Below, piece after piece: positions 59,404 through 64,000 of a stretch of 64,000 nucleotides of DNA. The position numbers were made by a program, and so were the translations under genes. This stretch comes from Edaphochlamys debaryana (taxonomy: Eukaryota > Chlorophyta > Chlorophyceae > Chlamydomonadales). Below the pieces are notes generated by a model. The model saw only the letters and a program-made list of their open reading frames with translations, was not told the origin of the DNA and did no database searches. The stretch spans positions 1 to 64,000 of the forward strand of contig JAEHOE010000021.1 of the NCBI GenBank assembly GCA_016858145.1, given 5' to 3'. Every line of letters starts with the position of its first letter. The stretch's first letter is position 1.

Positions 59404-59512
59404 CTGCGGGGGGGAAGGGATGGGGAAGGGGAAGGGGTAGGAAGGAGAGAGGGGGGTCCGTAAGCAGAGGATGCAGGGCTCATGGACCCATGCACAGTGC
59501 ACGGTCCGCAAG

Positions 59513-59916
59513 TGTTGTGCGCCGACCGTAGAAACGGACGTATTCTGCGAACGTCTACGGTCGTGCGGCCAAGTGCGGCCGAACTCTGGTCTGACTGTTT
59601 CTGCGACACCTGTGCGGGGGTCCGCAACACCCTCCGTCGCTCTGCACTGCTTGGGACCTGCCCCGTGGTTAAGCACCCTGCTGCACTGTGCTTTCACCAC
59701 AGCGCCTGGAAGCTGTGGTGCTGTCACCGGTTAGCGTCTGACTGCAGTTACGAGAGCTACAGCTGGCACGCGCCAGCTGTGCGCCTCGGAATCCCCTGCC
59801 GTTACTCCGGAAGCTACTTAGACCCGGCCTCTGGCCGCTAACCGGCATTCGCTCAATGCCACGTCTAAACGGACACGACTCTGGGTTCTCACTTAGCTCT
59901 TACTAGTGTTCTAACA
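59513..59916 (+). repeat. Candidate 5' LTR of a Ty3/gypsy-type retrotransposon
   Basis: This 404-bp span begins TGTTGTGC and ends TCTAACA, giving the expected TG...CA limits with a short TGTT/AACA inverted terminus. It lies between an intron of gene 3 and the gag start. The matching 3' LTR would be outside the window, so the limits are unproven. Confidence 0.4.
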
Positions 59917-59931
59917 GCTCAAGCACTAGGC

Positions 59932-59948
59932 TGGTACAACAAGTGGCA
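59932..59948 (+). other. Candidate primer binding site
   Basis: TGGTACAACAAGTGGC starts 16 bases after the proposed LTR end. Primer binding sites begin TGG because they pair with a tRNA 3' CCA. The tRNA is not identified. Confidence 0.3.
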
Positions 59949-59985
59949 CGCGGGACCTGCCCTCACGTTCGCCGCTCCAGTAACT

Positions 59986-62153
59986 ATGGCCGCGGACAAC
60001 GAGAAGTCTAACTCCGTGGAGGGTAGCCAGGGCGAGCCTGCCGAGTACAGCCTTATGTCTGGCTCCATTGACGACAACAGCAAGGGTACTCTTTGAGCTC
60101 GCTCCTGCCTGTGCCGCTTAGCTGCTTAGCTGTTTAGCGTCAGACGCTGCACGTTACTCGCTCGCTCTCTGCTGCGTTGCTGCTGCGTCTCGACTTTAGT
60201 CGCCCTGTTCCTGACCGGTTTCGGCGTCTCCGTTTCGGTCTGACCGGTTTCGCCGTTACTGCCCGTTCTGTAGAGAATCACCCCGACGGTGAGGAGGCCA
60301 GGCCCGAGTGCGACTCGGCCGCTCCGAGCCTGACGGCTGCAATCGACCGTGCCGACAAGATCAACCGCCTGTCGCCTGGACGACACCATCGGCACCCTGG
60401 CCGACCTCGCTGGCGTGCACCGTGGCATTAACCCAGCCGCGGCTGACACCCTTGACGCCGCCATCCCGTACTGCGTCCGCGCCAAACACGAGCTCGGTAT
60501 CGCGGGTGAGTCGCGATGGATATCTGGGCGATGGGATGGCGCCCTCCGGGCTACGTTCCGCCTAACCCGGTGCCCAACGGGCAGGGTCCTGCTGTAGATA
60601 ACGGTCCGCCAGCTGGGCAGGCCGGGGCTGCTCCTGGTGCGGGTGCTGTAGCGGCCGACGTCGCGATGGACAATGACGGCAACCGGCCCCTCGCTCCTGC
60701 TCCGCCAGCCCATAACCCTGCACTGCTGCAACCAAACGCGCTTCCGCACCCTGTTGCGCTCCCTGCTATGCCTGGCGCTCCGGTCGCGCCTGGGCCCTGG
60801 GCCGGTTTCATGCCGCAAATGCCCGCTGGGGCTATGGCGCCCGGTTACATGCCTGTGCCGTGGCCCTGGGGCCCTCCGTTCAGCATGCCGTATGGCCAGC
60901 CCGCTCCTGCTGCGGTGCCTGCGCCTGCCCAGGCCCCTGTCGCGCCTGCTGCGCCTGCGGCTCCTGCTGCCGCTTCTGTTTCTGCTAACGCTGCCTTCCG
61001 TGGCCCAATCCCTGAACGCGCCCCAGAGAACCAGCACGACCCCGAGGGTGGCGCTGCCTCTGGTGAGGCCTGCAAGGTCTCCACGCCGGTGGGTCGGGTC
61101 ATTCGGGCTTCGCTGCCAGCGCCTGAGCTGGACCTGCACGGCCTGAAGGGGCCCCGTGTCCCCGCCCGCGTGCGTGCCTTTATTAGGGACGTAACTGAAT
61201 ATTTCAGCTGCGTTACCGTGGGGGAAACGGACCCTGGGCGGCGCCTGTTCCTGTCCTCTGCACTTAAGGGGATCGCCAAGACCTGGCTTGACGATTGGAC
61301 CGCAGCCCGTGGCAACGAGTCATATACCTCTGATGATATGCTCGATGCCGTTCGTGCGCGGTTTGCCCCCCAACTGATGACACGGCAAGAAGAGGCCCGC
61401 ACTGAGCTGGCACGGCAGTCCTATGCCTGGATTGCTAACCGTGACACTGTAGCCGCTTACCAATCCCGGTTTAACGCCCTGTGCACTGCCATTCCCAACA
61501 TGACCGATGAGGAGAAGTGCTTCTGGTTCAAAGCCGGCCTCTCTGCTGAAACTGAGCTTGCCGCTTCCTGCGCCTCCTCCCGGGAGGGCAACCCGTTCAC
61601 GTCATATGCCGAGCTCTGCTCTCACGCCCTCTCTGAAGAGCGCAAAATGAAAGCTCGAGCTGACGCAATCCGTGACTCCCGTGCCCGTCTTGCTTCCGTT
61701 CGTGCCTGCCGCCCCTCCCGTCCGCAGCTGCCCAAGAAGCCCGACTCCGACGACGGCGACGGCGACGCCCCCTCCAAGAAGGCCCGGGGTGCCGACGGCT
61801 CCGCCATCAAGGCCGCTGCGGCGTTCAAGGGCAAGGGCTCGCCGGGCAACAAGGGCAACAAGCACAAGAGCCCCGGCGGCCACAAGTCCCACGGCAACGG
61901 CAAGAACGGCAACGGCAAGCCCCAGTCCGGTGGTGACGAGGGCGCTGGCCCCTCGCAGCCCCCGGTGGGGCCCCAGCGCGTGGCCTTCCTGATCCGGAAC
62001 GCCCGCGCCCGGGGCGAGGACATGGCCGAGCAGATGCGCGCGTTCAACTGCAACCGCCGCACCTACTACGAGCGCAAGGGCTCGGGCCAGTGCCTCAACT
62101 GCGGTGCCTCCGACCACCGGGTCGCTGAGTGCCCCAGCAAGCCCGACAACTGA
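59986..62153 (+). CDS. gag: Gag polyprotein of the retrotransposon, apparently with introns
   Basis: Proposed start ATG at 59986 (MAADNEKSN). A first intron at 60086-60273 and a second at 60506-60597 join frames cleanly (phase 1 in both). Between them, one extra base near 60372-60375 must be skipped to pass from KINRL to LDDTIGTLADL, so either a +1 shift occurs or this copy is mutated. The main block from 60598 is Pro/Ala-rich, then has a capsid-like helical region (about 61170-61640, DVTEYFSCV, IAKTWLDDWTA, YQSRFNALC), a basic linker and a CCHC zinc knuckle (CLNCGASDHRVAEC, 62091-62132). It ends CPSKPDN and UGA at 62151-62153. Alternatively, gag starts at the ATG at 60516, which lies inside the second proposed intron. 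The capsid and knuckle identification is firm; the spliced N-terminus is inference. Confidence 0.75.
60086..60273 (+). other. Putative spliceosomal intron 1 in gag
   Basis: GTACTC donor and TCTGTAG acceptor, 188 bp. Without splicing, the frame from 59986 stops at 60094-60096. With splicing it reads on as SKENHPDGEEA. Confidence 0.5.
60506..60597 (+). other. Putative spliceosomal intron 2 in gag
   Basis: Consensus GTGAGT donor and GCTGTAG acceptor, 92 bp. Splicing fuses HELGIA to DNGPPAGQAG and enters the long gag frame in phase. Confidence 0.55.
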
Positions 62154-62726
62154 GGGCCTGCCCAGGCGTGTGCTGTAGGGGTTAGCCCACCTGGGTGCAA
62201 GGATAGGCCGCCTGTGGCCAAATGCGGTGCCGTTCACCTAGCGCATTCCGCACTGACTTCTGACAATCATGACGCTTCTGACACTAAAGCATCTGGCATG
62301 GTGTGGCGTGCGTGTCGTGCGGTGACTGGTTCTGTGCTGAAGGAAGTGGAGCGCAAAATTAAGCGCAAGTTTTCGTATGACTTGTCTGCTATGCGTGCTG
62401 GCTTCTCTGCTACGTGTAACGTAGAGTGGCCTCGTTCTGCTTCTTTGGCCTCTGCGCGTCTTGGTGGTCACACCGTCTGGTTTACCCCTATCTCACTTGG
62501 TCAGCTGAAGGAGGGTCTTCGTGTCTTCAACTCGTGGCGTGCTGCTCGTCCTTTGACTTGCCTCGCCGTCCTGGTGCCCTCCTACATCGCCGCTCAAGCC
62601 AAGTCCGCTTCACTCTTCAACGGTATGGAGCGGGTTATGCGTTTTAAGGCGGGGTCTCAGCTGTTCAATGGGATTACCCTAGAAGGTCGTGTTTGCGCGC
62701 CTGCCTGCCATCACGTCCTCTGCTGA
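62154..62726 (+). CDS. Open segment after the gag UGA stop (retrotransposon ORF)
   Basis: The gag frame stays open for about 190 codons after a single UGA. The segment VWFTPISLGQLKEGL, LTCLAVLVPSYI and VMRFKAGSQLFNG looks coding. Its pattern (a W-x-x-P block, a hydrophobic VPxx strand, then GSxLF) recalls a reduced methyltransferase-like module I associate with some algal retroelements; that link is tentative. The frame must then shift to reach protease near 62676-62690. It could be read by UGA suppression, reinitiation at the GTG at 62214, or not at all. Confidence 0.45.
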   Translation, partial: GPAQACAVGVSPPGCKDRPPVAKCGAVHLAHSALTSDNHDASDTKASGMVWRACRAVTGSVLKEVERKIKRKFSYDLSAMRAGFSATCNVEWPRSASLASARLGGHTVWFTPISLGQLKEGLRVFNSWRAARPLTCLAVLVPSYIAAQAKSASLFNGMERVMRFKAGSQLFNGITLEGRVCAPACHHVLC

Positions 62727-64000
62727 GGTCTGGTACGCAGCCCCTGCTGATGGTGTTGCTGCGCCCTGTACTGCTAAGCCCCATGTGTCCTGTTTGCGAG
62801 CCAATGCCGCTTCCACAGACTCTGGGCTTCCTGTCATCGAGGTCCGTGCTGGCCGTGTGCTGACCACCGCTTTGGTCGACACTGGCGCTAGCCATGACTT
62901 CATTTCTTACGCTTTGGCGAAGCGTCTGGGCCTGCACATCGATCCTTCGTACCAGCAAAAGGTTACGTTGGCTGATGGTGGCACTCAAGCCATCATGGGC
63001 CGTGTATCGCTGCGCCTGGCCCTTGGGTCCCTGCACCTAACCGTTCGCCCCTTCGTGCTCTCAGGACTGCTGGACCCTGTCTCCTACGTCCTGGGTGCAT
63101 CGACCATGCGTTCTCTCTTCGCTGAGGTATGCATGGGGGACGGCTGCTTGCGCCTGCGCAAGGGCACTGCTTGGTGCCGCGTCCCCTTCCTGCCTGACCT
63201 CTCTGCCGGGGGGGAGGAAGCCGATGCATCTGAGCCTGATGCTGATGCACCTAGTCTGAACCTAGCCCTGGCTGCTATGCGTGCTGGTGCCGAGCCGCGA
63301 CGCATAGGCAGAAAGGAGGCTACTAGGGCCATCCGCAAGGGTGCGCATGGCATTCTGTTATGCCCTCGTGTACCTGTTAACGCTGGTGCCTCTGTTGCCA
63401 CCTCCCCAGAGCCTGCCGTTCAGGCTGTGCTTGATGAATACCAAGAGGTGTTTGCTGAGATTATTGACACCCCTCCCTGGCGCCCTGTGTCGCATACAAT
63501 TGAGCTGGAACCTGGTACTCGACCAATTGCCCGCCGTCAATACCGGCTCAGTCCGCTGGAGCAAGAAGAAGTCAAGCGTCAAGTCACCGACCTTCTGGCT
63601 AAGGGCATGATTCGTCCGTCGACGTCACCCTGGAGCGTCCCCATCCTCTTTGTTGGCAAGAAGGACGGTGCTCTCAGGTGTGAATGCTCCTTTAGCGGTG
63701 CAGCTTGCTACGTGTTGCCCCTGCTAACGGCCTCACGTGCTTCTCTCTTATCCAGAATGTGTATTGACTATCGAGGTGTGCGGTGGGGTTATCTGTTGCC
63801 TGCCCGCCTCCTCGTTTTGCCCTCCTTTAGTTTACCTCTGTCAGTCAGCGCCCCTCTAGCTCGGCCCGCGTTTAGGCTTAGATTTAGGTCAAACACATGC
63901 GTACTAGCTTAGAGCGCTGACCCCCTTCCCGGGTTCCTCTGACGTGTGTAGGCCTCAACGCCAAAACCGTCAAGAACCGGTACCCACTGCCGCGCGTCGA
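62681..64000 (+). CDS. pol: Pol: aspartic protease and start of reverse transcriptase, with introns, cut by window end
   Basis: The frame begins after a TAG at 62678-62680. The protease active site LVDTGASHDF (DTG codons 62878-62886) is followed by VLGAS. An RT N-terminal region follows (YQEVFAEI, PIARRQYRLSPLEQEEV, LLAKGMIRPSTSPWS, VGKKDGALR), then two introns. Removing 63678-63755 and 63776-63951 joins KKDGALR to MCIDYRG to LNAKTVKNRYPLPRV, the standard Ty3/gypsy RT motif. The middle exon is only 20 bases (63756-63775). The YxDD box, RNase H and integrase lie beyond the window. Confidence 0.85.
63678..63755 (+). other. Putative intron 1 in reverse transcriptase
   Basis: GTGTGA donor and TTATCCAG acceptor, 78 bp, with a possible branch site (CTGCTAACGG) near 63721. 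It splits an Arg codon exactly where the conserved KKDG-x-LR-MCIDYR motif is interrupted. Confidence 0.8.
63776..63951 (+). other. Putative intron 2 in reverse transcriptase
   Basis: GTGTGC donor and GTGTGTAG acceptor, 176 bp, splitting the Gly codon of DYRG-LN. The unspliced frame hits a stop at about 63910-63912. Confidence 0.8.

Follow-up and report, generated by a model that had tools for sequence, protein, structure and literature searches.

Introns within the reverse transcriptase and gag regions of a recently active Ty3/gypsy retrotransposon lineage in the green alga Edaphochlamys debaryana

A sequence that has been copied through RNA is classically recognised by its loss of introns; how, then, could a retrotransposon that appears to carry introns in its own reverse transcriptase (RT) have passed them on? 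The question is raised by the last 4.5 kb of the 64,000-nucleotide stretch of E. debaryana DNA analysed here (the window; positions 1 to 64,000 of contig JAEHOE010000021.1, hereafter C21), which form the left-hand part of a long terminal repeat (LTR) retrotransposon of 8 kb, of the Ty3/gypsy chromodomain type, at C21:59513-67489. A first, sequence-only reading of the window had placed two introns around a 20-base micro-exon in RT and two more in gag, and had offered three explanations: packaging of unspliced RNA with translation of spliced RNA, intron gain after insertion, or domestication. The RT pair is borne out by our analysis, which adds two further introns (i3 and i4) past the end of the window at 64000, so that the original count was too low; the element begins at its LTR, at 59513, and not at 59986 as first proposed. 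We consider it very probable that a recently active chromodomain Ty3/gypsy lineage gained introns in gag and RT and kept them through many rounds of retrotransposition, unspliced RNA being copied and spliced RNA translated.

The boundaries of the first two RT introns, i1 and i2, can be read directly as CTCAG/GTGTGA...ATCCAG/20-base exon/GTGTGC...GTGTAG/GCCTCAAC. As a test of the boundaries, every exon piece was aligned separately and unjoined to three uninterrupted relatives, namely P0001, a gene model from Astrephomene, and two frames on contigs of environmental origin (DNA or perhaps cDNA), P0002 and P0003. The pieces mapped on all three in order and without gaps, with exactly one residue between neighbours, and the residues of the relatives at the four introns were R, G, G and D, matching the predictions from the junction codons. 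Counting the two gag introns (g1 and g2), the length is not a multiple of three in five of the six introns of this family (family A; the exception is i1), and five of the six contain stops in at least one frame (the exception is i3); unspliced RNA therefore cannot encode RT. Also in favour of introns is a branch-site-like CTRAC motif, found 31-36 nucleotides before the acceptor in four of the six, compared with 24 of the 4068 AG ends of the window.

We searched the 141.9-Mb assembly (502 contigs) for further copies; very common words were skipped and only the best candidates scored, so that all copy numbers are lower bounds. A 601-base query spanning i1 and i2 was covered completely, or but for one base, at 16 places (the window and 15 others), and both introns were kept with intact GT and AG in all 16 aligned copies. 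Likewise i3 and i4 were kept at 17 of 17 places, comprising 16 end-to-end matches and one on C244 that falls into three pieces, together holding both introns and an internal duplication. Copies with an uninterrupted RT, which the sequence-only reading had named as contrary evidence, numbered none among the 16 places for i1-i2 and none among the 17 for i3-i4; these lists are lower bounds, and a rare spliced copy may exist. Seven separate insertions, on C21, C81, C14, C138, C38, C28 and C20, have two LTRs, exact 5-bp target-site duplications and differing flanks, and i1-i4 are all present in each of them. Their LTR pairs show 0, 0, 1, 0, 0, 5 and 1 mismatches and 0, 0, 0, 0, 1, 27 and 0 gap columns, respectively. 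Left out of this count were C404 (L051/L075) and C64 (L065), which share the flank of C138 (L044/L069). The target duplication on C254 has a one-base mismatch.

The introns extend to two other families, B and C, with 72-79% identity in RNase H. Family B (C143, C64, C28 and two loci on C172) has i1, i2 and i4 and is without i3, and family C (two loci on C38, and C89, C149, C165 and C168) has i2, i3, i4 and an extra intron, i3b, and is without i1. All three B loci that were read have i1 and i2 and lack i3, and at five of five B places the match spans i1-i2; all six C loci that were read have i2 and i3 and lack i1. For i3b, and for i4 in B and C, the base-by-base reading covers one locus each. 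Both i2 and i4 lie at the same codon and phase in B and C as in A, and i4 divides a codon of the catalytic YLDD motif in all three families. Intron sequences are still alike between families beyond the level of shuffled ones, with z scores of 4.3-7.2 for i2, 3.6-6.7 for i4 and 4.9 for i3, with shuffles that preserved base content and not dinucleotide content. For the exons, pN/pS was 0.227 (A-B), 0.311 (A-C) and 0.161 (B-C), with pS of 0.59-0.82 (128 codons, compared codon by codon within each exon in one locus per family), which shows purifying selection on the spliced reading. Since i1, i3 and i3b differ between the families, individual introns have also come or gone at times, and one natural way of losing them would be recombination with spliced RNA while the element is copied.

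A tree built from 44 RNase H segments and rooted at the midpoint unites families A, B and C in a clade (98/96), whose sister group consists of eight volvocine or environmental proteins (both together 100/99). The next group includes elements of the same genome with uninterrupted single frames of 1377-1437 amino acids. This topology favours intron gain inside the lineage. The volvocine sister elements (P0001 from Astrephomene and others) resemble family A in clade, in RNase H (69-75% identity) and in the kinds of Pfam domains. A search for relatives found none in viral contigs; genome contigs yielded five, filed under bacterial assemblies and 30-53% identical to P0001.

We also considered whether the introns are spread copies of a repeat and rejected the idea: DNA searches that included i1-i4, which pass over very common words and give lower bounds, listed no intron-only match outside the three families except on C254, where 129 bases that cover part of i2 together with the exon after it lie beside another copy.

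The two gag introns of the sequence-only reading fit both the frame and the splice sites. The ends of g1, GTACTC and CTGTAG, are identical in the 10 copies where this intron was found. The exon between g1 and g2 could be delimited in 8 of 11 copies, where it measures 243 nucleotides (two copies) or 240 nucleotides (six) and is open, a multiple of three and bounded by phase-1 introns; the remaining three are L048 (a third version with a shifted donor), L052 (an insert) and L053 (uncovered). Read by eye, the first gag intron and the second donor are laid out alike in family B, and the 5' regions of the family C loci on C89 and C149 yielded a partial match or none.

Among the window, L042, L043, L045, L047-L050, L066 and L067, exon 2 occurs in three or more versions that align at 36-48% identity, set between introns and exons that are conserved. 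The exon resembles an exchanged or fast-evolving cassette.

In the mechanism we envisage, fully spliced mRNA would be translated into Gag, and into Gag-Pol by reading past the gag stop, and only unspliced full-length RNA would be packaged and copied, so that the introns would be inherited. RT requires spliced mRNA and inherited introns require an unspliced template; the two RNAs would therefore have to be kept apart. Separate RNA pools have been shown for BARE, although the roles of splicing there differ from those in family A (PMC3735527). The simplest idea of how the RNAs are sorted is that splicing would take away a signal for packaging or export near the 5' end, with g1 as the best candidate. 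Identity across copies is 90-93% in g1 and 72-100% in exon 1, and the genomic RNA may depend on a signal within g1. A conserved g1 next to a variable exon 2 would also be expected from mosaic recombination between subfamilies, and copies with window-like LTRs carry the other gag start. Analysis of RNA structure in the leader and g1 of six sequences gave no covariation support, with both sides changed in 2 of 96 predicted pairs. We suggest only tentatively, as a doubtful though possible model, that splicing is a switch between expression and replication, in which a packaging or export signal in g1, just past the primer site, would bar spliced messengers from particles and so let the lineage accumulate polymerase introns, among them the one in the catalytic motif.

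Several observations weigh against the view that these introns were kept through repeated copying of unspliced RNA. Splicing, packaging and translation are predictions from the DNA. The window's own copy is broken: gag exon 2 is shortened by a small deletion, pol has one base too many near its start, an in-frame stop lies at the border of RT and RNase H, and another stop lies in the chromodomain. Each of these lesions is missing from copies elsewhere that cover its place, some of which have lesions of their own. Among the introns, i1 shares only its position between A and B, with no sequence similarity (z 0.1), and i1 and i3 are each absent from one family. The RT pieces of 91 and 35 amino acids, searched alone, were without a Pfam match. 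The range of positions used for the CTRAC motif was picked after viewing the data; the motif is missing there from i3 and i4 of family A and from five of the seven B and C introns, and the tally over all families is 6 of 13 (g1 of family B left out of the count). We hold the gag introns less firmly than those of RT, their frame and splice sites being the support, and the first reading's claim for them is weakened at g2, whose acceptor AG is kept in nine of the ten rows that cover it and mutated in L047. Moreover, exon 3 is open through g2 from an internal ATG, and a shorter Gag could begin inside g2. Finally, the volvocine sister elements were compared as proteins, and the introns may have been gained before or after the split from them.

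Of the alternatives, an improbable one is that A, B and C are non-autonomous passengers whose RNA is copied by the enzyme of an uninterrupted relative and whose introns persist because their own RT has fallen out of use. The same genome does hold uninterrupted Ty3/gypsy elements, those with the frames of 1377-1437 amino acids, and the broken copy in the window would suit a passenger. However, a passenger has no need of the purifying selection seen in the exons or of the RT splice sites and frames that have been kept, and nine copies besides the window's have open frames of 893-901 amino acids around the RNase H region. Very improbable is the use of an antisense transcript as template, in which the introns would be invisible to the spliceosome. 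Such a template has been suggested for Penelope elements as an explanation of intron retention (PMC3846280), but the LTRs, the site resembling a primer binding site, the purine tract before the 3' LTR and the 5-bp duplications of the present element resemble those of Ty3/gypsy elements primed on sense RNA. Spread by DNA duplication, in which the introns would never have been challenged by reverse transcription, we regard as scarcely credible. Since C138, C404 and C64 share flanks, some copies have been duplicated or assembled twice, and C71 holds an array of LTR-internal-LTR-internal form; the idea is nevertheless refuted for the seven insertions with different flanks and exact target duplications of their own.

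Two of the three explanations of the sequence-only reading did not survive. That the C21 copy acquired these segments through recent insertion or decay, or gained them as introns once it was in place, has a negligible chance: this copy does have other lesions, but the intron positions are common to every copy aligned and to families B and C, which excludes both versions. An equally negligible chance attaches to domestication, in which the element would be a host gene of retrotransposon origin. Host genes typically have introns, but many copies are flanked by LTRs, with different flanks and target duplications, and the seven LTR pairs have 0-5 mismatches and 0-27 gap columns. The explanation that the first reading had put alongside these, in which unspliced RNA would be packaged and spliced RNA translated, is supported by the copies, the target duplications and the three families.

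Copying of unspliced RNA beside translation of spliced RNA has partial parallels elsewhere. The nearest known case is Ogre, a plant Ty3/gypsy element of the Tat lineage with one splice between protease and RT (PMC6317226). As predicted for family A, some of the Ogre transcripts must be spliced for the whole polyprotein to be read (PMC6317226), and we infer that unspliced RNA replicates there. Family A differs from Ogre in having four introns inside RT (one of them in the catalytic motif) and two in gag, a chromodomain end and an algal host. The plant Ty3/gypsy elements CRR and Bagy2 also have spliced RNAs, and the CRR splice touches the RT region; however, in CRR the splice takes rt out and in Bagy2 it yields an env RNA (PMC3735527), whereas family A splicing would restore RT. 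Penelope-like elements have likewise kept introns through retrotransposition (PMC3846280), but they have a GIY-YIG endonuclease or none, whereas the C21 element has integrase domains (the zinc-binding one above cut-off), LTRs and 5-bp duplications. Among plant copia elements, BARE1 has separate pools in which spliced RNA is translated and unspliced RNA copied (PMC3735527), and EVADE has a spliced short GAG RNA (PMC12786077); in both the splice is optional and serves Gag only, Pol coming from unspliced RNA, whereas Pol of family A needs splicing. In Cer1 of Caenorhabditis elegans the spliced product is a separate nuclear protein that serves export of unspliced element RNA (PMC12786077). In the excerpted open-licence literature we found no report of introns in the RT domain of an LTR element that must be removed for RT, and such cases may exist elsewhere; relative to known cases such as Ogre, the multi-intron RT domain of an LTR element would be new.

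Introns gained and kept in an element's own RT suggest that copied and translated RNA can be fully separated, and the three families are a natural system for asking how the two stay separate. Because i1, i3 and i3b vary among families that share i2 and i4, introns that were either gained or precisely lost can be studied in alignment. There is also a warning for annotation, in that intron-bearing elements resemble broken retrotransposons or host genes.

Coordinates of the features of the C21 element are collected in Table 1.

Table 1. Features of the intron-bearing retrotransposon, as positions of the window or, where prefixed, of contig C21
Feature	Position	Strand	Remark
5-bp target-site duplication GCAAG	59508..59512	.	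identical five bases after 3' LTR, C21:67490-67494
5' LTR, TGTTG...CAACA, 429 bp	59513..59941	+	0/429 mismatches to 3' LTR, C21:67061-67489
Putative primer binding site, TGG start	59944..59957	+	2 bases past 5' LTR
gag exon 1, 33 codons and one base	59986..60085	+	open in both subfamilies
gag intron g1, GTACTC...CTGTAG, 188 nt	60086..60273	+	CTGAC at -34
gag exon 2, hypervariable between copies	60274..60505	+	short deletion in window copy
gag intron g2, GTGAGT...CTGTAG, 92 nt	60506..60597	+	CTAAC at -36
gag exon 3, capsid and CCHC knuckle (weak matches)	60598..62153	+	ends with TGA, 62151-62153
gag/pol stop TGA	62151..62153	+	in 15/15 family A rows
pol first exon, to KKDGAL-R	62154..63677	+	protease at about 62860-63111, then RT start; one extra base in window copy
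RT intron i1, GTGTGA...ATCCAG, 78 nt	63678..63755	+	CTAAC at -32; position common to family B, absent in C
20-base micro-exon, R-MCIDYR-G	63756..63775	+	direct reading; exon-piece alignment
RT intron i2, GTGTGC...GTGTAG, 176 nt	63776..63951	+	CTGAC at -35; in families A, B and C
RT exon 3, G-LNAKTVKNRYPLPRV...	63952..64000	+	runs on to C21:64058
RT intron i3, 68 nt	C21:64059-64126	+	just past window; then exon 4
RT intron i4, 122 nt	C21:64312-64433	+	past window; splits Asp codon of YLDD, GA/T
Exon 5	after i4, C21	+	reaches RNase H, integrase and chromodomain

One open frame (62683-63677) holds both the protease and the beginning of RT, and the introns lie within RT and gag. The C21 element gave Pfam matches above cut-off to gag-asp_proteas, RVT_1 (in the 60-amino-acid piece of exon 4), RT_RNaseH, Integrase_H2C2 and Chromo, and the order protease, RT, RNase H, integrase fits membership in Ty3/gypsy. 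The C-terminal Chromo match reaches 25.2 bits (cut-off 25.1) despite the stop there in the C21 copy, a stop that is absent at that point in the one B locus and the one C locus read. Below their cut-offs were the integrase core rve (29.0 bits, cut-off 32.6), an RT match at the start of the exon that follows the 60-amino-acid piece, and the weak matches in gag to Retrotrans_gag (23.5 bits, cut-off 24.1) and zf-CCHC (14.5 bits, cut-off 20.8). A purine tract precedes the 3' LTR. The putative primer site occurs in two variants among the copies, TGGCACGCGGGACC and TGGTAGCGGGACC; with three search patterns no matching primer tRNA was found for the site of the C21 element or for either variant.

Readthrough of the gag/pol stop is the likely route to Gag-Pol, judging from the reading frames. 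Past the TGA the gag frame stays open over the rest of the aligned stretch in 11 of 15 family A rows; in the remaining four, one of them the window's own, it is broken by lesions further downstream. One B and one C locus have TAG at this junction (L091 and L090), the residues after the stop are similar in all three families, and gag and pol lie in one frame. The region at 62154-62680, about 175 codons before the protease, is 44-53% identical over aligned stretches in B and C and gave no Pfam match above cut-off.

Some copies have rearranged structures. The C244 copy (C244:56187-57063) has an internal tandem duplication of a 159-base stretch with most of i3 and part of exon 4. The flanks shared by C138, C404 and C64 point to one insertion that was either duplicated or assembled more than once. 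The array on C71 (L066, C71:351500-352700, with L047) comprises two element copies, and L068 (C13:288800-290200) is apparently a solo LTR with its own 5-bp duplication, GAGAG. In L058 (C289, about 700-840) the 5' part is replaced by CCCTAAA-type repeats, perhaps at a healed chromosome end; these repeats are like the telomere repeat of E. debaryana, reported as (TTTAGGG)n (PMC8226300).

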